A stretch of DNA of 64,000 nucleotides from an uncultured Erysipelotrichaceae bacterium (GTDB lineage: Bacteria; Bacillota_I; Bacilli_A; Erysipelotrichales; Erysipelotrichaceae): contig OMXQ01000005.1 in assembly GCA_900315065.1 (NCBI GenBank), forward strand, positions 1 to 64,000, in the 5' to 3' direction. The position numbers and the translations under genes are program-made. Below, piece by piece: positions 14,397 to 43,585 of the stretch. The notes beneath the pieces were generated by a model that had not been told where the DNA came from, did no database searches, and saw nothing but the letters and a program-made list of their open reading frames with translations. The stretch's first letter is position 1. Each line of letters opens with the position of its first letter.

Positions 14397-14763
14397 GGGG
14401 CTGTCATGGTTTCGACAGGTTATTGTTTGATTCAGGCTGCAGTGGAGTGATGACCATATCATCAACAAATTTAAACGCAAACAACTATAACAGAAGCGCA
14501 AGCTTCGCTTTCGCTGCTTAATTGACGCTTGACGCGTCGCAGCGACCCGATGAACAGTTGAGTTACCTGCTGTTCATTGTGTAATCAGGTAAATACGGAA
14601 AAGCCCATGTCTGTAAGCTGATCCCGACAATTTTACAGGCAGATTCAGAGGACGGGTGGTTCGTTGTCATGTCCTTTGTCTTATTCAATCAATGAACTAA
14701 ACTGTAGACGCCTGAATGTGGGACGTTTCTTGGACACGGGTTCGACTCCCGTCAGCTCCACCA
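14397..14763 (+). ncRNA. ssrA: Transfer-messenger RNA (tmRNA)
   Basis: The 5' end GGGGCTGTCATGG pairs with the 3' acceptor CAGCTCC, followed by an A discriminator and encoded CCA (14753-14763). A T-arm with GGTTCGACTCCC lies just before it. The tag reading frame runs from the GCA resume codon at 14477 to TAA at 14519-14521 and encodes ANNYNRSASFAFAA, a normal hydrophobic degradation tag. Pseudoknot-forming repeats lie on both sides. It rescues stalled ribosomes with SmpB. The 3' end marks the last clear host sequence before the foreign region. Confidence 0.98.
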
Positions 14764-34145: not shown

Positions 34146-35500
34146 AGGATGTTATCAATTACGCTCAGAATCCCGACAAAACTATCGAGCGCAAATATCT
34201 TGATGATGACTTAGCTGCCACTCTCAATTACGTTGAGAACGGCGACAAGACAGACAAAACAATGTACGTCAGCGGTATTAACTGCCCGAAAAAGCGAGCC
34301 TATGAGCGTATGATGACAACTAAGCGGCGGTTCGGCAAGCTTGGCGGCAATGTGGCGTATCACGGCTATCAGAGCTTTCAGGCAGGAGAAGTCATGCCCG
34401 AAGAAGCGCACCGAATCGGCGTAGAAACTGCCCGCCGTATGTGGGGCGATGAATATGAGATAGTCGTTACGACACATTTAAATACCGACCATCTTCATAA
34501 TCATATTGTCGTAAATAGTGTGTCCTTCCGCACAGGGCGAAAGTTTGAGAATCATATCTCCGATCACTACAAGCTGCGTGAGATTTCCGACGAGGTATGT
34601 CGTGAGTATGGTAAATCCGTTCTTGAAAACGCTCCGTTCTACGGCGGCGATAAAGTGTATTGGATACGGAAAAGCGGACAGCTGCCGCATAAGGATATGC
34701 TTCGTAAGGACGTTGATGAAGCGCTTGCGAATACCTGTAATCCGGTGGACTTTGAAGTGTACCTGCGTTCTCTCGGTTACAAGTTTGTGAGGAACTTCAA
34801 ATATGAGCATCCGTCGGTTGTTGCTCCCGATTGGCAAAAACCTGTGAGAATAAGCAGTCTCGGTAAGGATTATTCCAGACAAGCTATCTTAACTCGCCTG
34901 CGCACTCAACACGAGGACAGATACTTTATGGATTTCTACACGCCGAGACCTGTAGTCCGCAGAACGCCGTTGATTTTGGTTATACGAAATTACGAAAAGG
35001 AGCATACGCCTGACTTGATTACCTCGCTGTTTGAGTTGATTATAACTATCGCTAAGATCTGCACGGGCTCGAATATCAAGAAAGCCGATTACCGTCCGCT
35101 GTCGCCTGATTTGAGAGCAGAAATTATCAACCTTGACCGAACGCTCGAAGAATACCATTTCCTCTGCGATCAATTCATTAACTCTGTGGAGGATTTTGTA
35201 GAGTGCAAAGCAGAGATTGTTGGGAAGATTGAGAATTATGAAGCCGAACGGCAGCAACTCCGCAACCGAATCCGCAGGGCAAAATCACCCGAAGAAGATA
35301 ATTCTCTTAAAGAACAATGCAGAGAAATCACAAAGAAACTGACACCCTTGCGCCGACAGCTAAAAATCTGCGAGCGCATTGAAAACAAAGTGCCTCGACT
35401 CCGTGCTTTGATCGAACAGGAAAAGCAACTGGAGCAAGGCAGATACAAGTACAAATATTATAAACAAACCAAATCAAAACAAAGGAGTTACGAACGATGA
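34106..35500 (+). CDS. Relaxase / mobilization nuclease (MOBP type)
   Basis: 464 residues from a GTG inside mobC. The N-terminal 200 residues form the relaxase domain. The metal site reads THLNTDHLHNHIVVNSV with H124, H129, H131 and H133, and catalytic Tyr candidates lie in the first 30 residues (INYAQNPDKTIERKYL). The C-terminal third is a charged coiled coil (EAERQQLRNRIRRAKSPEED). It nicks oriT and pilots the strand in conjugation. No coupling protein or mating-pore genes are in the element, so a helper must supply these. It ends overlapping the ParB gene. Confidence 0.9.
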   Translation: MATTGFWPVKGRLKDVINYAQNPDKTIERKYLDDDLAATLNYVENGDKTDKTMYVSGINCPKKRAYERMMTTKRRFGKLGGNVAYHGYQSFQAGEVMPEEAHRIGVETARRMWGDEYEIVVTTHLNTDHLHNHIVVNSVSFRTGRKFENHISDHYKLREISDEVCREYGKSVLENAPFYGGDKVYWIRKSGQLPHKDMLRKDVDEALANTCNPVDFEVYLRSLGYKFVRNFKYEHPSVVAPDWQKPVRISSLGKDYSRQAILTRLRTQHEDRYFMDFYTPRPVVRRTPLILVIRNYEKEHTPDLITSLFELIITIAKICTGSNIKKADYRPLSPDLRAEIINLDRTLEEYHFLCDQFINSVEDFVECKAEIVGKIENYEAERQQLRNRIRRAKSPEEDNSLKEQCREITKKLTPLRRQLKICERIENKVPRLRALIEQEKQLEQGRYKYKYYKQTKSKQRSYER

Positions 35501-36351
35501 CCAATATATCAATCAACAAATTACACGAATTCAAAGACCACCCTTATCAGGTGCTCGACAATGAAGAAATGAACAGCTTAATTGAGAGCGTTCAGCAGCA
35601 GGGCATTATGACACCGCTAATCGTCCGTCCTCTTGAAGGCACAACAAACGAGTATGAAATCATATCCGGACACCGCCGCTTCCGTGCGGCGCAGAAGGCA
35701 GGGCTCACAGAAGTCCCTGCCTTTATTCGTCCCGTCAGCCGTGACGAGGCGGCGATTATGGTGGTGGACAGCAATCTACACAGGGAGCACATTCTACCGT
35801 CGGAAAAGGCTTTTGCCTATAAGCTGAAAGCCGAAGCACTAAAGCATCAGGGACAGCGAACTGATCTCACTTCGGGACAAATTGTCCCGAAGTCTGACGA
35901 AAACCGAGCGACTGCATTTATCGGTGAACAATCAGGTGAAAGCTACAAAACCGTACAGCGTTATATTCGCTTAACAAATCTTATCCCCGAATTGCTAAAC
36001 CTGATGGATGAAGGCAAGATCGCTTTCTCTGTCGGCGTAGAGCTGTCATATCTCTCACCCGAAATCCAGCGTGATTTATATGCGATTATCGAGCGGGATG
36101 ATCATACACCGTCTTACTCACAGGCTTATCGTTTGCACAAAGCCTTTAATAGCTGTTCTCTGACGAAAGAAGGTTTGGAGCTCGTGATGTCGGAGGAAAA
36201 AGCAAACCAACGGGAAACGCTGAAAATCCCAATGGACAAGGTAAGAAAATACGCTCCGAGAGCCACCGACAATCAGCTTGAGGACTTTGTCCTCAAAGCC
36301 TGCGATTATTACCAACGCTATCTCAAGCGACAGCGTGACCGTGAAAGATGA
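35497..36351 (+). CDS. ParB/RepB-like nuclease-domain protein
   Basis: 284 residues. N-terminal ParB domain: NKLHEFKDHPYQVLDNEEM, IIVRPLEG-like GIMTPLIVRP, GHRRFRAAQKAGL and NLHREHILPSEKAFAY, followed by the HTH GEQSGESYKTVQRYIRLTNL (about 145-165) and VELSYLSPEIQ. These proteins bind centromere or regulatory sites; in elements of this kind they may also regulate transfer genes. The start overlaps the relaxase stop (ATGA). No ParA partner is present, so a classical ParAB role is doubtful beside the ParM system. Confidence 0.88.
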   Translation: MTNISINKLHEFKDHPYQVLDNEEMNSLIESVQQQGIMTPLIVRPLEGTTNEYEIISGHRRFRAAQKAGLTEVPAFIRPVSRDEAAIMVVDSNLHREHILPSEKAFAYKLKAEALKHQGQRTDLTSGQIVPKSDENRATAFIGEQSGESYKTVQRYIRLTNLIPELLNLMDEGKIAFSVGVELSYLSPEIQRDLYAIIERDDHTPSYSQAYRLHKAFNSCSLTKEGLELVMSEEKANQRETLKIPMDKVRKYAPRATDNQLEDFVLKACDYYQRYLKRQRDRER

Positions 36352-36361
36352 GGTGAGCCTA

Positions 36362-36532
36362 TTGAACAATGAATTGCAAACTGCGGAATACTCGGAAGAA
36401 ACGTTAACGCTCCTCGCAAAAGCATTTGTTCCCGATATCATCGAGTTTTATAACAGTGAGTTTGGCAAACAGTATTACGAGAAGTGGCTAAAGGCTCACC
36501 CCGAATATCAGGACGGAAAAAAGATTGCGTAA
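36362..36532 (+). CDS. Small conserved-looking acidic protein
   Basis: 56 residues from a TTG at 36362 with GAGGTGAG 5 nt upstream; a GTG at 36353 is the alternative. The sequence (ELQTAEYSEETLTLLAKAF, FYNSEFGKQYYEKWLKAH) is helical and acidic. Not recognised beyond resembling short proteins found between ParB and recombinase genes in Bacillota elements. It starts 11 nt after parB on the same strand, so they are likely co-transcribed. Confidence 0.6.
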   Translation: MNNELQTAEYSEETLTLLAKAFVPDIIEFYNSEFGKQYYEKWLKAHPEYQDGKKIA

Positions 36533-36584
36533 ATTTGACACAATCGACTGTTTTCTACAAATCCTGTAAAATATAATCAATAAA

Positions 36585-36609
36585 GCTCTCCGTCATCTCG
36601 GCGGAGAGC
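36585..36609 (+). promoter_or_regulatory. Leader hairpin directly upstream of the recombinase ribosome site
   Basis: GCTCTCCG (36585-36592) pairs perfectly with CGGAGAGC (36602-36609). AAAGGAGG follows after only 2 nt. There is no U-run, so it is not a terminator; it could shield the ribosome site or be bound by a protein. A TTGACA at 36535-36540 and TATAAT at 36572-36577 are present but 31 nt apart, so the promoter is unclear. Confidence 0.5.
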
Positions 36610-36623
36610 AAAGGAGGTCAATT

Positions 36624-38129
36624 ATGAATGTAGTAATCTATGCCCGCTTTTCGAGCCACAGTCAGACCGAGCAATCCATCGAAGGTCAGTTAAAGGTTTG
36701 CTATGAATACGCGGAGCAAAATCATTATACAGTTGTCGGTGAGTACATAGACAGAGCTATGAGCGGTAAATATGATAATCGTGCCGAGTTTCAGCGTATG
36801 ATTTCCGACAGCGATAAGCACACCTTTGAGGGTGTGTTGGTGTATCAGCTTGACCGCTTTGCCCGTAACCGCTACGACAGCGCAATCTACAAAGCCAAGC
36901 TAAAAAAGAACGGTGTGAGGGTGTTATCGGCAAAAGAGAATATCACCGATGACGCATCGGGCATCCTCGTCGAAGGCGTGTTGGAGAGTATGGCGGAGTA
37001 TTATTCCGCCGAGCTTTCTCAGAAGATCCACCGAGGAATGGAAATCAACGCGCAAAAGTGTTTGTCCAACGGCAGCAATCCCGGTCTTGGGTTTAAGGTG
37101 GATAAAGACAGGCGATTTTATGTTGACGAGGACGAAGCCAAAATCGTGCGTGAGATATTTGAGCGATACGCCAGCGGTGAAACAAAGGCAGAAATCGTAA
37201 AGGATTTGAAACGCCGCAAAGTCAAAACTTCACTTGGTAACGATTTCACTTATAACAGCCTCAGCCGTATGCTGAGCAATAAACGATATATAGGAGTTTA
37301 TATGTATAAGGGGCAGGAAACGCCGGGCGGTATGCCGAGGATTTTAGACGACGATTTGTTTTACAAGGTTCAGGATATACTGGACAAAAACAAGAAGGCT
37401 CCAGCCAGAACGCACGGCGAGGGTGAGTATCTGCTGACGACAAAGCTGTTTTGCGGTCATTGCAAGAATATGATGGTCGGCTACGGCGGTACAAGTAAAA
37501 CCGGCAAACAGTATCACTATTACATCTGCAAGGAAGCCCGAAAGAAACGCTGTGATAAAACAATCGTCGGCAAAAAGAAAATTGAGGACAGAGTGATTGC
37601 AGAATGCTTGAAACTGCTTACCGATGATAACATTAAGTTTATTGCCCAAAAGGTAGCCGAGGAATGCAGCAAGAGTCCAGATAACTTGACGGTCAAGCAG
37701 TTAAAGAAAGCTATCCGAGAAGCGGATATCGCCATTGAAAACCTGTGGAGAGGTATTGAGCAAGGACAGTCCGTGCCAATGCTGACAGAACGCCTTAACA
37801 AACGTCAGGCTGAAAAAGATGCGCTTGAAGAACAGCTCGCCATTGAAGAGAACAAGCGGATATGCCTTTCGGAAGCACAGATACTCGCATTCCTCAATTT
37901 TGTCTGCGAAATGCCGCTTGATGATGTCAATAAACGCAGAGCCATCATTAACATTCTTGTTCATTCGGTGTATCTTTACGATGACCATTTTACACTGATA
38001 ATCAACGCCAGTAAGAAATCGATGAGCATTGATGACATACCGTTAGAGGAAATTGAAGAAGCCTTTAACTCCGATAAAACCTGCACGGAGCAGTGTTCGA
38101 CTATAACGTCGCCTGCTCCACGAACTTGA
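36624..38129 (+). CDS. Large serine recombinase (integrase of the element)
   Basis: 501 residues. Resolvase domain: YARFSSHSQTEQSIEGQ with the nucleophilic Ser near residue 10, LVYQLDRFARNRYDS, then the recombinase domain (GYKxD-like GLGFKVDKDRRFYVDEDEA, NKRYIGVYMYKGQE), a zinc ribbon (CGHCKNMMVGYGG ... YYICKEARKKRCDK) and a coiled coil (about 380-420). Such enzymes integrate and excise elements at short att sites. AAAGGAGG precedes the ATG. It is the last gene of the foreign block and is followed by a terminator. Confidence 0.93.
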   Translation: MNVVIYARFSSHSQTEQSIEGQLKVCYEYAEQNHYTVVGEYIDRAMSGKYDNRAEFQRMISDSDKHTFEGVLVYQLDRFARNRYDSAIYKAKLKKNGVRVLSAKENITDDASGILVEGVLESMAEYYSAELSQKIHRGMEINAQKCLSNGSNPGLGFKVDKDRRFYVDEDEAKIVREIFERYASGETKAEIVKDLKRRKVKTSLGNDFTYNSLSRMLSNKRYIGVYMYKGQETPGGMPRILDDDLFYKVQDILDKNKKAPARTHGEGEYLLTTKLFCGHCKNMMVGYGGTSKTGKQYHYYICKEARKKRCDKTIVGKKKIEDRVIAECLKLLTDDNIKFIAQKVAEECSKSPDNLTVKQLKKAIREADIAIENLWRGIEQGQSVPMLTERLNKRQAEKDALEEQLAIEENKRICLSEAQILAFLNFVCEMPLDDVNKRRAIINILVHSVYLYDDHFTLIINASKKSMSIDDIPLEEIEEAFNSDKTCTEQCSTITSPAPRT

Positions 38130-38164
38130 GAAATCGCTGATAATATTGCGGTTTCTCTTTTTTT
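38129..38164 (+). terminator. Terminator after the recombinase
   Basis: AGAAATCGC (38129-38137) pairs with GCGGTTTCT (38148-38156) with one wobble, followed by CTTTTTTT. Confidence 0.8.
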
Positions 38165-38350
38165 GTCCATAAATATCATTTATGATTGTTTTTCAAGCAC
38201 AAAATCAATCAAAAGCTGAAAATATGATCGAATTTCAATCACAAAGACAATCACAAATTATTTGCACTTGAATTTATGATTGCTTCCAATGATAATCAGC
38301 GAGTATCATCTCTGATGTATAGACCACGATAAAAGAAAGGAACCAGAAGT
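38165..38350. other. A/T-rich gap holding the probable right end of the element
   Basis: Codon style changes back to host right after this gap. It contains a repeated TTTATGATTG (about 38179 and 38272) and several AATCA/TGATT arms, which could be recombinase half-sites. I see no copy of the ssrA T-arm or acceptor sequence. AAAGGAA precedes the GNAT start. Confidence 0.4.
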
Positions 38351-38911
38351 ATGAATGCAGATATAGATATCAGTGACGTAACGTTGATGAGCGAAAGGTG
38401 CATGTTAAGACCCTGGAAGATGAGCGATGCAGAAGACCTGTTTGCCTATGCTTCAGATCCGGATGTGGGTCCGATGGCAGGCTGGCTGCCGCATAAAACA
38501 ATCCTGGAGTCCCAGGCGATTGCATCTATGTTTATTCAGGAAAAGAAAACCTTCGCCATTGAATACGAAGGTCATGTCATCGGTTCCATCGGGATTGAAA
38601 ATTATGATGAGAAGCTGTTTCCTCAGTATCAGGATCTGCAGTGCCGTGAACTAGGCTTTGTCTTATCAAAGCAATACTGGGGCAGGGGCATCATGCCGGA
38701 AGCTGCGGACAGAGTACTTTTCTATCTCTTTATGGAAAAGAAGCTGGATGTGGTATTCTGCGGTTATTTTGACTGGAACAGACAGTCCGCAAGGGTACAG
38801 GAAAAACTTGGTTTCCATGAAATCCTCCGTCACAAAAGTCTGAGACCAAACGGAAAGACAGAAACTATTGTCTCCAATGTTATGACCAGAAAAGAATACC
38901 TTGGTCATTAA
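38351..38911 (+). CDS. GNAT-family N-acetyltransferase (RimJ/RimL type)
   Basis: 186 residues, with the family opening LMSERCMLRPWKMSDAEDLF, AIEYEGHVIGSIGI, and the acetyl-CoA loop ELGFVLSKQYWGRGIMPEA (Gx-Gx-A region), then WNRQSARVQEKLGFHEI. RimJ/RimL relatives acetylate protein N-termini, and other relatives act on small amines; the substrate cannot be read. It is the first host-style gene after the element. A bidirectional terminator separates it from the converging HAD gene. Confidence 0.85.
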   Translation: MNADIDISDVTLMSERCMLRPWKMSDAEDLFAYASDPDVGPMAGWLPHKTILESQAIASMFIQEKKTFAIEYEGHVIGSIGIENYDEKLFPQYQDLQCRELGFVLSKQYWGRGIMPEAADRVLFYLFMEKKLDVVFCGYFDWNRQSARVQEKLGFHEILRHKSLRPNGKTETIVSNVMTRKEYLGH

Positions 38912-38928
38912 TACATGAGAGATATAAG

Positions 38929-38953
38929 AAAAGCGGATCTCTCCGCTTTTTTC
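38929..38953. terminator. Bidirectional terminator
   Basis: AAAAGCGGA-TCTC-TCCGCTTTTTT (core 38933-38937/38942-38946) between the converging GNAT and HAD genes. Its right edge touches the HAD stop codon. Confidence 0.85.
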
Positions 38954-39746
38954 AGAATTTCTGATTCAGAATCCGCATGACGCCTTTGTAATTATTGGAA
39001 GGTGCTGTGTGTCTTGCGATCCTCAGAATAGTCGGATGAGAATTTGCCATAGCATAGCTTTCACCGGCTTCTTTTAACATAGTCAGGTCATTGAGATAAT
39101 CTCCAAAGGCCATGGTTTCTTCTTTTGAAATGCCCAGGATTTCCTGGAGTTTCTTCAATGCTGCACCTTTGTTTACATCCTTGTGAACCAGATCAATCCA
39201 TTCCGGACCGCCCAGGACTGCATTGACTGCTTCCGGCCATTCCGTAATCTTTGCGGATACTTCGGCTGCTTTCTTTTCACGGATATAGGTTGCGATCTTG
39301 ATAATCTGATTGTCTTCTGCCGCAGCATTCAGATCGTCTGTATATTGATATTTCGTGAAATAGGTATGGACCTGTTTCTCATATTCTTTATCGTTACCGG
39401 GATGGCGGCAGATGCCTTTTTCCGCTGCACAGAGAATCGGTTCTGCCAGTTTTTCATCTTTCAATAAAGAAAGACATTGCGCAACCTCTTCCTTCGTCAG
39501 GGCATTCTGATAAATGATTTTGCCGCCGGCATAGATGATGCCGCCGTTATCCCCGATAAAGATCATTTTGTCTGCGATTCTTTCAAAGAGCTGATAGTTT
39601 GTATAATAGGGTCTGCCGCTTGCAATGACGACATGTACCTGTGGATGGGCAGGCACCCAGTCAAAGAATTCTTCCGGAATTTCCTTTTTATCGTTTACCA
39701 ATGTGCCGTCCATATCCACGGCAATCAATCTGATTTTTGTATTCAT
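38952..39746 (-). CDS. HAD-superfamily hydrolase, Cof type
   Basis: 264 residues. Motif I VDMDGTLVNDKKEIP (nucleophilic Asp about 11), motif II IASGRPYYT, motif III Lys in KDVNKGAALKKL and motif IV GDYLNDLTMLKEAG, all intact, with a C2-type cap in the middle. Cof-type enzymes dephosphorylate sugar phosphates, nucleotides or cofactors. Monocistronic on the minus strand. Confidence 0.9.
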   Translation of the reverse strand: MNTKIRLIAVDMDGTLVNDKKEIPEEFFDWVPAHPQVHVVIASGRPYYTNYQLFERIADKMIFIGDNGGIIYAGGKIIYQNALTKEEVAQCLSLLKDEKLAEPILCAAEKGICRHPGNDKEYEKQVHTYFTKYQYTDDLNAAAEDNQIIKIATYIREKKAAEVSAKITEWPEAVNAVLGGPEWIDLVHKDVNKGAALKKLQEILGISKEETMAFGDYLNDLTMLKEAGESYAMANSHPTILRIARHTAPSNNYKGVMRILNQKF

Positions 39747-40022
39747 GGGGCCATTATATAAGAAAAAAATTCAGGTGAATACTGTTTTCCACATGCCGGA
39801 AAAATGTAAACGGATTCATTTCCTGGAGGGAGGAAAGTCATCAGATTTTCGGCAGAATTTTTTTGGACAGTGATGGATCCAGAAAGAACCAGACTGCCTG
39901 TAAAAGGGCTTATTTTATTCAGTTTTTTATTCGGACAAGTCTTAAAAATGTATGGTTGTTAAGCCATATTCTGAATGTCTGAAAATGAAACCGCTTACTA
40001 TAAAATATTTGTAAAAAATGTA
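39747..40022. other. Intergenic stretch without a confident gene
   Basis: Contains the HAD gene's upstream region. A 29-codon plus-strand frame at 39873-39962 (M-D-P-E-R start, hydrophobic middle) has no good ribosome site and is not called. Nothing else is clear before the promoter at 40023. Confidence 0.4.
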
Positions 40023-40050
40023 TTGACACAATTTTTTATAGTGCTATATT
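40023..40050 (+). promoter_or_regulatory. Strong promoter of the tandem-hairpin RNA
   Basis: Perfect TTGACA (40023-40028), 16-nt spacer, extended -10 TGCTATATT (40042-40050). No ribosome site or sizeable frame follows, and the first hairpin starts 22 nt downstream. Confidence 0.85.
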
Positions 40051-40056
40051 AATGCC

Positions 40057-40527
40057 TGCACGGTAAAAACAAATCAGATATTCAATACGAAATCTGATCG
40101 ATATACACGGGCTGACTGATCCTGTAAAAAGGATCAGGTGATATATAAGAACAAATCAATTTCCATTGGAAATTGAGCGATATACAACGATAAATCAACC
40201 GCATAAACAGGCGGTTGAGCGTAATATAGCAAGGACCTGATGATATATCATCGGGTAGATATATAAGTACAAATCGATGAAGAAATTCATCGAGTGATAT
40301 ATACAGACAAACCGGTCATTCCTATTGACCGGGTGATATATGACAAGTGCCTGAAGATAAGTCTTCGGGTTGATATATAAAAACAAATCAGCCGCAGATC
40401 AAACGGCTGAGCGTAATATGGCAAGGACCTGATGGAAAATCATCGGGTAGATATACAGCAATAACATGGTGCAGAGCATCGTGAGAAATATATACAGATT
40501 GATGAGACTGAAGTCTCGTTTTTTTTT
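40057..40527 (+). ncRNA. Tandem-hairpin RNA: twelve hairpins at a ~39-nt pitch
   Basis: Twelve stem-loops follow one another. Arms: 40073-79/40092-98, 40116-23/40130-37, 40156-64/40168-76, 40195-202/40211-18, 40236-43/40248-55, 40274-81/40286-93 (GAAA loop), 40312-18/40326-32, 40350-57/40362-69, 40388-94/40404-10, 40428-34/40441-47, 40465-72/40476-83, and the terminator. Starts are 37-43 nt apart. Stem sequences differ but stay fully paired, with G-U pairs at hairpins 5, 8, 10 and 11, evidence for structure at RNA level. Linkers are nearly constant (GATATATAA, GATATACA, GTAATATAGC, then ACAAATC). Hairpins 4-6 resemble 9-11, a higher-order repeat of about 193 nt. Not a known RNA class to me. 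Confidence 0.78.
40504..40527 (+). terminator. Terminator of the tandem-hairpin RNA
   Basis: GAGACT (40504-40509) pairs with AGTCTC (40512-40517) and is followed by G and nine Ts. It is also the twelfth hairpin in phase with the array. It lies 63 nt before the phasin-like start, so the array could also act as a leader. Confidence 0.9.
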
Positions 40528-40590
40528 GCGTTTTGGTGCTATCATAAAGGCAGATAAAGTATTTTCATATCATTGAAGGAGGATAATTTT

Positions 40591-40863
40591 ATGGATGTTC
40601 AGGAAATGCTCAAGAACGTATTGCTGGCTCAGGTAGGTGCTGTTGCTTTGACAGCTGAAAAGGGCAATGATCTGCTCAAGACTCTTGTTGAAAAGGGTGA
40701 AATTACCGTTGAACAGGGCAAGGCACTGAATGAAGAGCTCAAGCGCAAGGCTGAAGAAAAGAAAGAACCGGAAAAGAAGGATGTCACCTCTCTTCTGGAT
40801 GGTCTGAGTGATGAAGATCTTGCCAAGCTCAAGGAAGCAATCGCAAAGAAAGAAGAAAAGTAA
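40591..40863 (+). CDS. Phasin-like small helical protein
   Basis: 90 residues, fully helical and charged: LLAQVGAVALTAEKGNDLLKTLVEKGEITVEQGKALNEELKRK. This fits short phasin-like proteins listed as polyhydroxyalkanoate synthesis regulators, which in many Bacillota occur without any PHA genes. GGAGG is 8 nt upstream of the ATG at 40591. The stop overlaps the AarF start by one base (TAATG), so both are made from one message. The real role in such organisms is unknown. Confidence 0.8.
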   Translation: MDVQEMLKNVLLAQVGAVALTAEKGNDLLKTLVEKGEITVEQGKALNEELKRKAEEKKEPEKKDVTSLLDGLSDEDLAKLKEAIAKKEEK

Positions 40864-42518
40864 TGAAAAGTGCTGCGGAAAATACAGAACTCGCAATGGC
40901 CGAGAAGAAGTTTTCCAATGGCACACGTCTGAATGAAATCCGCCAGATTCTTCAAAGGAATCACATAATGCGCGGCGTCTCGCCTGAGAAGCTGCGCATT
41001 ATTTTAGAACAGCTTGGTCCGACTTATATCAAGATCGGCCAGATCATGTCTCTGCATTCGGATATTCTGCCGGAAGAATATTGCAGAGAATTGATGAAGC
41101 TGAATTCTGATGTACCGCCGATGGACTTTTCAGAGGTGAAGCAGGTCATTGAGGAAGCCTATGCGCGTCCGGTCGATGATGTGTTCGCATCCATTGACGA
41201 ACATTCTTTAGGTGCGGCTTCCATTGCCCAGGTGCATCGGGCAGTATTGAAGAACGGGGATCAGGTCATTATCAAAGTTCAGCGCAAAGGCGTTCATGAA
41301 CTCATGAGCCGGGATATTTCCTTATTGCATAGTGCAGTCAGAAAACTGCCCGTTGTCAATTCGATTAAGAATGTCGTTGATCTCGACATGGTATTGGATG
41401 AGATGTGGAACATCGCCCAGCAGGAGATGAATTTCCTGCAGGAAGCTGACAACATGGAAGAATTCGCAAAGAATAATGCGGATGTGAAATATGTCGGCGT
41501 ACCTGCTCTTTATCGTGAGTATACAACTTCTACAGTGCTCGTCATGGAATATGTGGAAGGCTATAACATCACTGACATTGAAGGATTGAAGGAAGCCGGG
41601 TATGACCTGGACGAAATCGGCATGAAGCTGGTAAATAATTACATCCGTCAGGTCATGCGGGATGGTTTCTTTCATGCGGATCCTCACCCGGGCAATCTCA
41701 AGATCAGAGACGGCAAGATCATCTGGCTGGATATGGGCATGATGGGAAGACTTACCGATCTGCAGAGAGAAATCATGATCCGCGGGGTCAGAGGCATTGC
41801 CAACCATGATATCGGGATGGTAGAAAGTGCCGTCCTGGATCTCGGCGACTTTACGACTTCGCCTGACCGGCATCTTTTATACGAAGATTTGCGGGATTTC
41901 CTGGAAATCTATGGAAATGCAAATCTGGGATCCATCAGGCTGGGAGATGCTTTGCTGGATGTCATGGATATCATGAAGCGCAACCATATCCGCATGCCGC
42001 ATGGATTGACCATGCTGGCAAGAGGCTTGTCTCATATGCAGGGGGATCTGACTGTGATTGCCCCGCGGATTTCCATGGCTGAAATCGCTGCTGCAAGAGT
42101 AAAGGAAGACTATCTTCATAATTTTGATCTGCGTCAGGAAATCGAGCACAAGGCAGAAAAACTCAATATCTCGCTGGATAAGGGCGTTGAATTACCTGCC
42201 CTGATCAATGATGCCTTGAAGGAATATCTGCGAGGGGAAGGCAGAGCCAATCTGAAATTGCAGATCTCCGGTCCTTTTGCCCAGGTTCTCTATACTGTTA
42301 CCAGAAATCTGGTGATCGGTCTTGGTGTATCTGCCTTGTTCATTTCTTCGTCTATTATCTGTATGACAAATATGGAACCGAAAGTTTTCGGCATTCCGTT
42401 AATCGGCTTTGCCGGCTACAGCATCGCAGTCGGTATTTCTGTTATTCTCTCCGGCAGATATCTCTGGCGTCATCACAAGCAGAAAGACCGGCGTGATTCG
42501 GCACCGATCTCTCATTAG
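40863..42518 (+). CDS. AarF/UbiB (ABC1/ADCK) family atypical kinase
   Basis: 551 residues. The family KxGQ region reads YIKIGQIMSLHSDILPEEY. Nucleotide elements are SLGAASIAQVHRAVLKNG (Ala-rich loop) and VIIKVQRKG, and DGFFHADPHPGNL and IWLDMGMMG carry the catalytic Asn/Asp. Two C-terminal membrane helices (about 475-530). UbiB proteins support coenzyme-Q synthesis in Proteobacteria; Bacillota members have unassigned lipid-linked roles. It is translationally coupled to the phasin-like gene, suggesting the two act together at the membrane. Confidence 0.92.
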   Translation: MKSAAENTELAMAEKKFSNGTRLNEIRQILQRNHIMRGVSPEKLRIILEQLGPTYIKIGQIMSLHSDILPEEYCRELMKLNSDVPPMDFSEVKQVIEEAYARPVDDVFASIDEHSLGAASIAQVHRAVLKNGDQVIIKVQRKGVHELMSRDISLLHSAVRKLPVVNSIKNVVDLDMVLDEMWNIAQQEMNFLQEADNMEEFAKNNADVKYVGVPALYREYTTSTVLVMEYVEGYNITDIEGLKEAGYDLDEIGMKLVNNYIRQVMRDGFFHADPHPGNLKIRDGKIIWLDMGMMGRLTDLQREIMIRGVRGIANHDIGMVESAVLDLGDFTTSPDRHLLYEDLRDFLEIYGNANLGSIRLGDALLDVMDIMKRNHIRMPHGLTMLARGLSHMQGDLTVIAPRISMAEIAAARVKEDYLHNFDLRQEIEHKAEKLNISLDKGVELPALINDALKEYLRGEGRANLKLQISGPFAQVLYTVTRNLVIGLGVSALFISSSIICMTNMEPKVFGIPLIGFAGYSIAVGISVILSGRYLWRHHKQKDRRDSAPISH

Positions 42519-42539
42519 CGGCTGGAAATGCCGCTTTTT
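42517..42539 (+). terminator. Terminator after aarF
   Basis: AGCGGC (42517-42522) pairs with GCCGCT (42530-42535), followed by TTTTT; it begins at the stop codon. Confidence 0.85.
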
Positions 42540-42569
42540 CTCTCTGTGTTTTTGTTCTTGTTTCTTTGT

Positions 42570-43499
42570 TTAATATCCCTGCTTCTGATCAACGACATGT
42601 TCCAGCGGCTCACCTTTCAGATAATGACCCAGGTTTTCATAGAAAATATCCAGTACTTTCTCATAGGTGACTGCTGCATTGAAGCGGCCGGATATATGAG
42701 GAGTAATATAGACATTCTCTGTGTTCCAGAGAGCACTGTTTTTCGGCAATGGTTCCTGTTCGGTTACATCCAGTCCGGCCCCGGATAATTTACCTTCGTG
42801 CATGACTTTGATCAGAGCTTCTGTATCAATGGCAGATCCTCGTCCGACATTGATCAGAATGGCACCTGTCTTCATTTTACGCAGTCTTTCAAGATCAAAG
42901 AGGTGTTGGGTGCTGGCTGTACCTGGAAGAGACAAAGCAACGACATCCATCATAGGCAATAGTTCGTCCAGATGATCCATGGTTGTAAGTTCCTTCAGGT
43001 AATCCGGCTTTTCATGCATGGTTCTGCGGATGCCGTAGACTTCTGCACCCAGCATTGCCATCTTCCTGGCATAGGAAGAGCCGATGTTGCCCATGCCTAC
43101 GGAAAGAACTTTGGAAGTTGAAAGGGTTCTGACAGAACCGAGGTTGTTCCAGCTGTGGGACTGGCTCTGTGCCTGATAGCGGTAGAGATTCTTCATGATA
43201 GCCAGTGTGACGCCAAGCATGTGCTCGGAAATCGCTTCACCATAGGCACCGGAAGCATTGGTTACAGTTACCTTCGGCAGATTGGAATAGGAACCTGCGC
43301 CGGCACTATCCAGCTGCAGCCATTTCAGTTTCTCTGCGTCTTTCAATAAGGACGGGGAAACATTGCCTAAAATGACTTCCGCTTCTTTCACATCTTCAGG
43401 CGTCAGACGATCACGATCAGTAAATCTGATCTCGGAACAAAGGTCCAGAAATTTCTGTCTGTATTTTTCTTCAATCGGGGTTGCAAAGAGAATATTCAT
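42570..43499 (-). CDS. D-isomer-specific 2-hydroxyacid dehydrogenase
   Basis: 309 residues from the ATG at 43499 with AGGAG upstream; an upstream in-frame extension has no family match. Rossmann motif LSVGMGNIGSSYAR, then INVGRGSAIDTEAL (Arg), DVTEQEPLP (Glu) and YITPHISG (His), so the catalytic set is complete. It oxidises or reduces 2-hydroxy/2-keto acids such as hydroxypyruvate with NAD(P). The substrate is undetermined. Monocistronic. Confidence 0.9.
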   Translation of the reverse strand: MNILFATPIEEKYRQKFLDLCSEIRFTDRDRLTPEDVKEAEVILGNVSPSLLKDAEKLKWLQLDSAGAGSYSNLPKVTVTNASGAYGEAISEHMLGVTLAIMKNLYRYQAQSQSHSWNNLGSVRTLSTSKVLSVGMGNIGSSYARKMAMLGAEVYGIRRTMHEKPDYLKELTTMDHLDELLPMMDVVALSLPGTASTQHLFDLERLRKMKTGAILINVGRGSAIDTEALIKVMHEGKLSGAGLDVTEQEPLPKNSALWNTENVYITPHISGRFNAAVTYEKVLDIFYENLGHYLKGEPLEHVVDQKQGY

Positions 43500-43585
43500 A
43501 TTGTGCTCCTTTTTTCTTTTTTCATCATTACTGTAATTTGTTTGCCGGCAGTCGGCAAGTTTTTTCATGGTTTATAAAGAAGGAA

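Follow-up and report, generated by a model that had tools for sequence, protein, structure and literature searches.

The window analysed here, a stretch of 64,000 nucleotides from an uncultured Erysipelotrichaceae bacterium, carries on its + strand at positions 40023-40527 a promoter, eleven hairpins and one terminator hairpin (twelve in total, 40073-40517), followed by a U-run. The sigma-70-type promoter (40023..40050) consists of TTGACA (40023-40028), a 16-nt spacer and TATATT (40045-40050), with a predicted transcription start at about 40057. Upstream of it, and unremarked in the original prediction, lies a cre-like palindrome on the same strand, TGAAACCGCTTACT (39986..39999), which has one mismatch to TGWAANCGNTWNCA and is centred at -64.5 from the predicted start. 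A 5’ leader (40057..40072) with AAAAACAA at its end precedes hairpin 1 (40073..40098), after which linkers and hairpins alternate, all on the + strand. Linker 1, CGATATACACGGGCTGA (40099..40115), leads to hairpin 2 (40116..40137); linker 2, GTGATATATAAGAACAAA (40138..40155), which is the consensus 18-nt linker, to hairpin 3 (40156..40176), which shows covariation; and linker 3, GCGATATACAACGATAAA (40177..40194), to hairpin 4 (40195..40218). The variant linker 4, GCGTAATATAGCAAGG (40219..40234), is followed by hairpin 5 (40235..40256), which has a G-U pair, then by linker 5, AGATATATAAGTACAAA (40257..40273), hairpin 6 (40274..40293), linker 6, GTGATATATACAGACAAA (40294..40311), and hairpin 7 (40312..40332). 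Two further variants, linker 7, GTGATATATGACAAGT (40333..40348), and linker 9, GCGTAATATGGCAAGG (40411..40426), precede hairpins 8 (40349..40370) and 10 (40427..40448), with linker 8, TGATATATAAAAACAAA (40371..40387), and hairpin 9 (40388..40410) between them. The series closes with linker 10, AGATATACAGCAATAA (40449..40464), hairpin 11 (40465..40483), linker 11, AGAAATATATACAGATTGAT (40484..40503), and an intrinsic terminator of the form GAGAC-TGAA-GTCTC-G-U9 (40504..40526).

Beyond the terminator, 40573-42518 encodes a phasin-like protein of 96 aa (Pfam Phasin, sub-threshold) and an ABC1/UbiB-type kinase in an apparent operon. These two genes stand between the array and a D-2-hydroxyacid dehydrogenase gene on the - strand (42570..43568) in this genome, and the pair was not seen there in the relatives read. 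On the other side, 35497-38129 encodes a protein that looks ParB-like by eye and, by Pfam, a large serine recombinase carrying a zinc ribbon; the two may mark the border or the remains of an integrative element immediately upstream of the array region. The window also holds a tmRNA gene at 14397-14763 (RF00023, 133 bits).

The original prediction of twelve hairpins with their own promoter and terminator stands, with the terminator hairpin as the twelfth. The region 40050-40525 folds at -155 kcal/mol, with an RNAfold z of -10.4 on the + strand and -6.4 on the - strand, and it has 12 non-overlapping stems of at least 7 bp, where 300 dinucleotide shuffles averaged 2.1 and never exceeded 6. The ~39-nt pitch of the original prediction gave way: hairpin spacing is 35-42 nt in the window and averages 37.2 nt (sd 4.6 nt) across all arrays. 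The constant element is the linker, not the pitch, and hairpin length is variable. The claim of near-constant linkers was borne out, at 18 nt in the typical unit and 16-18 nt in the window, with 20 nt ahead of the terminator.

Stems are ~98% Watson-Crick, with few wobble pairs. Interior wobbles comprise 11 G-U pairs on the sense strand against 3 A-C pairs, the latter being the wobbles of the other strand, and this excess points modestly to a + strand RNA. Taken together, the wobble counts, the stronger + strand fold and the orientation of promoter and terminator favour an RNA read from the + strand. Long antisense open frames are present, in one array (L034) spanning its full length. We nevertheless reject coding on either strand, since the pitch varies regardless of multiples of three and both strands of a stem change together; no conserved ORF was found across the arrays.

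A nucleotide search of 60 relatives recovered arrays in five congeneric species. With R1, a covariance model of one unit (56 positions, 7 pairs), units were found in 23 of 70 same-genus genomes; a divergent array in G004, which the unit models miss, was added to the count separately and brings the number of arrays to 24, or about one species in three within a single genus. These homologues (24 of 70 genomes) differ in stem sequence and unit number and share constant linkers, the pattern that the original prediction had named as support. The hosts are gut and rumen bacteria, the named relatives being Erysipelotrichaceae and Solobacterium metagenome genomes such as RUG12361 and the goat ileum Solobacterium RGIG2362. 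Each genome has a single array, with 3-12 hairpins when the terminator is included; fewer are visible where contig ends cut arrays, and those of G017 and G032 lie at contig ends. In four relatives without an array (G082, G086, G071 and G034), the syntenic position was read and has none.

Scans of 316 genomes of the order (80 genera) with R1 and of 395 genomes of the class with R2 gave no match outside the genus; because the models miss divergent arrays such as that of G004, the distribution is a lower bound, with absence elsewhere unproved. Matches further afield were rejected: the one pattern match in viral contigs falls inside a coding region (model score 22 bits), and of the genome-collection matches outside Erysipelotrichaceae, the one that was read, in Alphaproteobacteria (L055, 29 bits), is located in an apparent coding region. 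Another (L058) scored 18.8 bits (E 0.24), and the remaining ones gave no model match at E <= 0.1. The array in G004 (L006 1420-1600) is a sub-type with CATG-type stems and 14-15-nt linkers (AGATATACAGCAAAA), which suggests that there are more undetected arrays among the relatives. In G014 (L004 1430-1830), a three-hairpin block (CTGACTGC, TCGATGAC, TCGATGG) is repeated, apparently a case of array growth in which several units were duplicated together.

All seven stem pairs covary: 110 cells carry compensatory changes and 99.4% of cells are paired, counts that lean somewhat towards structure since the alignment had been made to fit the model. None of 500 shuffles was as good, slid controls failed, and a first count on 18 selected units, aligned simply with MAFFT, gave the same result. 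The proposal that stems are interchangeable held in part: their sequences change and their pairing is kept, but the outer five pairs nearly always retain Y-Y-R-R-Y, and the variation is mainly by transitions. Loops differ in length and sequence. Between two stems, 98 linkers measure exactly 18 nt, with the consensus GYGAWAUAYA-AMRA-CAAA. Linker positions 1, 3, 6, 7, 8 and 10 are near-invariant, four of them partly by construction, as the linkers were picked by a pattern with G at position 1 and AUA at positions 6-8; C and U are about equally frequent at positions 2 and 9, and A and U at position 5. The exact motif occurs 54 times in the 70 genomes, always within an array, against 2 occurrences of a reversed control pattern, and we found no mRNA sites with the exact linker in these genomes. 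Selection appears to keep the linker and its length together with the pairing of the stems, and to tolerate loop change and variation in unit number. Such a pattern of conservation would be expected if the linkers were repeated binding sites and the hairpins spacers.

The promoter is also conserved among the homologous arrays, a leader with a GRAAAACAAC-type 3’ end is seen again, and a terminator lies at the close of nearly every homologous array visible to its end. New here is a cre-like palindrome (at most 2 mismatches) upstream of the -35 element in 20 of the 24 promoters (shuffles: mean 1.7, maximum 6), placed as in activation by CcpA. Its centres fall at -54.5/-55.5, -63.5/-64.5, -75.5/-76.5 and -85.5/-86.5 from the predicted start, on successive helix turns (Rayleigh p ~3e-8, an optimistic value because the sequences are related; 0.002 with each distinct position counted once). 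A CcpA-activated gene should have its cre on a constant face of the helix upstream of -35, and that is the arrangement in these 20 promoters; in four arrays (L027, L037, L038 and L040) no good cre-like site was found. The series also presents a natural run of class-I activator spacings within one genus. In B. subtilis, CcpA activates through cre boxes upstream of -35 (ackA, pta, ilvB), and its action depends on the helix face (PMC3463425). Three LacI-family proteins of the window’s genome score on the ccpA model, with a LacI-family protein at 248 bits, below the equivalog cut-off. From the geometry of the cre-like sites, the B. subtilis precedent and the CcpA-like regulator we infer, on good grounds, that CcpA switches the RNA on. 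The regulator bound at the cre-like site could instead be another LacI-family protein.

The D-2-hydroxyacid dehydrogenase gene is directly convergent with the array in 15 of the 24 cases, and three further arrays, among them that of the window, are separated from it by one or two genes. The original prediction had noticed no protein partner next to the array, and indeed none is consistently adjacent across the 24 arrays except this convergent dehydrogenase. The promoter-side gene varies from species to species. In two genomes the array is at another site, beside an iron-sulphur cluster protein gene (L027 1330-1620 in G074; L037 50-330 in G026), and its promoter there differs (TTGACA-17-TATCCT, without a cre-like site). 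The varying promoter-side gene and this second location argue that the array is an independent gene. A stand-alone ncRNA gene, with promoter, leader, covarying hairpins, conserved linkers and terminator, is well supported by the sequence comparisons.

This gene appears not to fall into a described RNA class, in keeping with the first impression of it: no Rfam 15 family matched at gathering score, permissive thresholds gave sub-threshold chance matches only, and literature searches for such an architecture found nothing. The array has in common with 6S RNA and other Rfam 15 families that it is a stand-alone regulatory RNA. 6S RNA itself was rejected, as RF00013 gives no match in the array; a separate, weak 6S-like candidate was found at another locus of the genome (C66:32108-32267; 33 bits, which is below gathering). 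CRISPR arrays likewise alternate a constant with a variable segment, and CRISPR-DR63 gave a weak sub-threshold match (23.5 bits, gathering 37). A CRISPR would have identical direct repeats with unique, non-palindromic spacers between them. Here the variable segments form palindromic hairpins that differ in length, and the constant part is 18 nt; because the variable parts are covarying hairpins, the array is not a CRISPR. The reported lack of cas genes was upheld by a Pfam scan, which found none cas-like among the six genes at 36624-43568.

CsrB-type sponge RNAs present GGA in hairpin loops, and CsrB titrates CsrA. The array is like CsrB/CsrC and RsmX/Y/Z in being a stand-alone ncRNA with many hairpins that shows one repeated site, in its variable number of sites and, as its promoter would suggest, in expression tied to carbon status. 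It differs in that its site is the 18-nt linker rather than GGA in loops (none among the window hairpins), in its cre-like promoter site and in its restriction to one genus. CsrA (PF02599) was found in none of the 70 genomes and was found in the E. coli, B. subtilis and T. maritima controls; with neither CsrA nor GGA loops, a CsrB/RsmZ-type CsrA sponge is rejected. Hfq (PF17209) was likewise found in none of the 70 genomes and in 5 controls, which speaks against an Hfq-dependent sRNA.

Our preferred reading, which we hold with little more than even confidence, is that the array encodes a carbon-controlled ncRNA that would offer a partner, most likely an RNA-binding protein, repeated binding sites in its single-stranded linkers. 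The partner and the function of the RNA we infer as follows. CcpA, or a close LacI-family relative, would turn the RNA on in the presence of preferred sugars. The hairpins would serve mainly as spacers, as insulators and as protection against nucleases, and the linkers would be the working parts, each binding the same partner. This partner may be titrated off other RNAs by a sponge, comparable to the action of CsrB on CsrA, or may be assembled in copies on a scaffold; the number of units would set the capacity and would alter through tandem duplication. A multivalent sponge or scaffold with CsrB/RsmZ logic, as the original prediction suggested by analogy, is consistent with these observations but unproven. 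Because the exact linker motif is missing elsewhere in the 70 genomes, a decoy could imitate no more than a shorter core of mRNA sites, and a dedicated ribonucleoprotein scaffold is as possible as a decoy. We count against the preferred reading that the exact motif is confined to the arrays, that CsrA and Hfq are absent and that four arrays have no good cre-like site.

Conserved unpaired segments are also typical of antisense seeds. It is conceivable, if unlikely, that the RNA is a multi-seed base-pairing sRNA in which the linker core GYGAWAUAYA pairs with several mRNAs, or with one at several places, to silence them, the hairpins keeping the seeds single-stranded. The choice of C or U at linker positions 2 and 9 is compatible with pairing to G, but A and U are about equally frequent at position 5 and no single paired base permits both. 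The strict motif has no match outside the arrays on either strand of the 70 genomes, so that pairing, if any, would be limited to short, A-U-rich stretches, and Hfq is absent.

Just as hard to credit, if not harder, is a precursor cut in its linkers into ~37-nt hairpin RNAs that act singly, like toxin-cut type III antitoxin arrays. The original prediction had also offered a cut precursor, with pieces of about 39 nt. Regular units and A-rich linkers would suit such processing, and the type III antitoxin RNAs (ToxI, CptI, antiQ) share with the array tandem structured units of 34-40 nt with their own promoter and a following terminator. Type III repeats are of similar length, at 34-36 nt, but are one sequence repeated and fold as pseudoknots (PMC5086642), whereas the array’s units differ in stem and loop and give no evidence of a pseudoknot. 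No toxin gene lies downstream of the array terminator, where we find the phasin-like protein and ABC1/UbiB kinase or, in relatives, the dehydrogenase; ToxN-type toxins are present in 5 of the 70 genomes and were not found in this one. A type III antitoxin was rejected on these grounds.

Template switching at quasi-palindromes can make compensatory changes. In principle, therefore, the stems could be perfect palindromes that act as DNA, as cruciforms or protein-binding sites, and that covary by this route without selection on an RNA. Stems that are ~98% Watson-Crick with few wobbles would also be seen in perfect DNA palindromes. We consider this reading improbable: the array’s direction is matched by a conserved promoter, activator site and terminator, the unpaired linkers are conserved as well, and inside the stems G-U outnumbers A-C by 11 to 3. 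Functionless ordinary repeats or mobile-element debris would fit the visible tandem duplications (the repeated three-hairpin block of L004), but this very improbable reading already appears contradicted by the covariation and the dehydrogenase synteny (15 of 24), and one array per genome, the constant 18-nt linker and the conserved promoter with its phased cre also stand against it.

In summary, the array looks like an undescribed RNA that carries many copies of one predicted binding site for a partner. With one single-stranded site present 3-12 times, behind a promoter with a sugar-control site, the RNA would be a direct bait for its predicted protein partner. The strong natural separation of binding site (the constant linker) from spacer (the covarying stem) may also be of use in the study of multivalent RNA-protein assembly. 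Moreover, no CsrA or Hfq was found in the 70 genomes, which makes the array of interest for post-transcriptional control in these bacteria. It is tempting to speculate, as a possibility short of a probability, that the array represents a new class of carbon-activated multivalent RNA whose GYGAWAUAYA-n4-CAAA linker is read by a novel RNA-binding protein, and that its titration or scaffolding of that protein would amount to global post-transcriptional control free of CsrA and Hfq.
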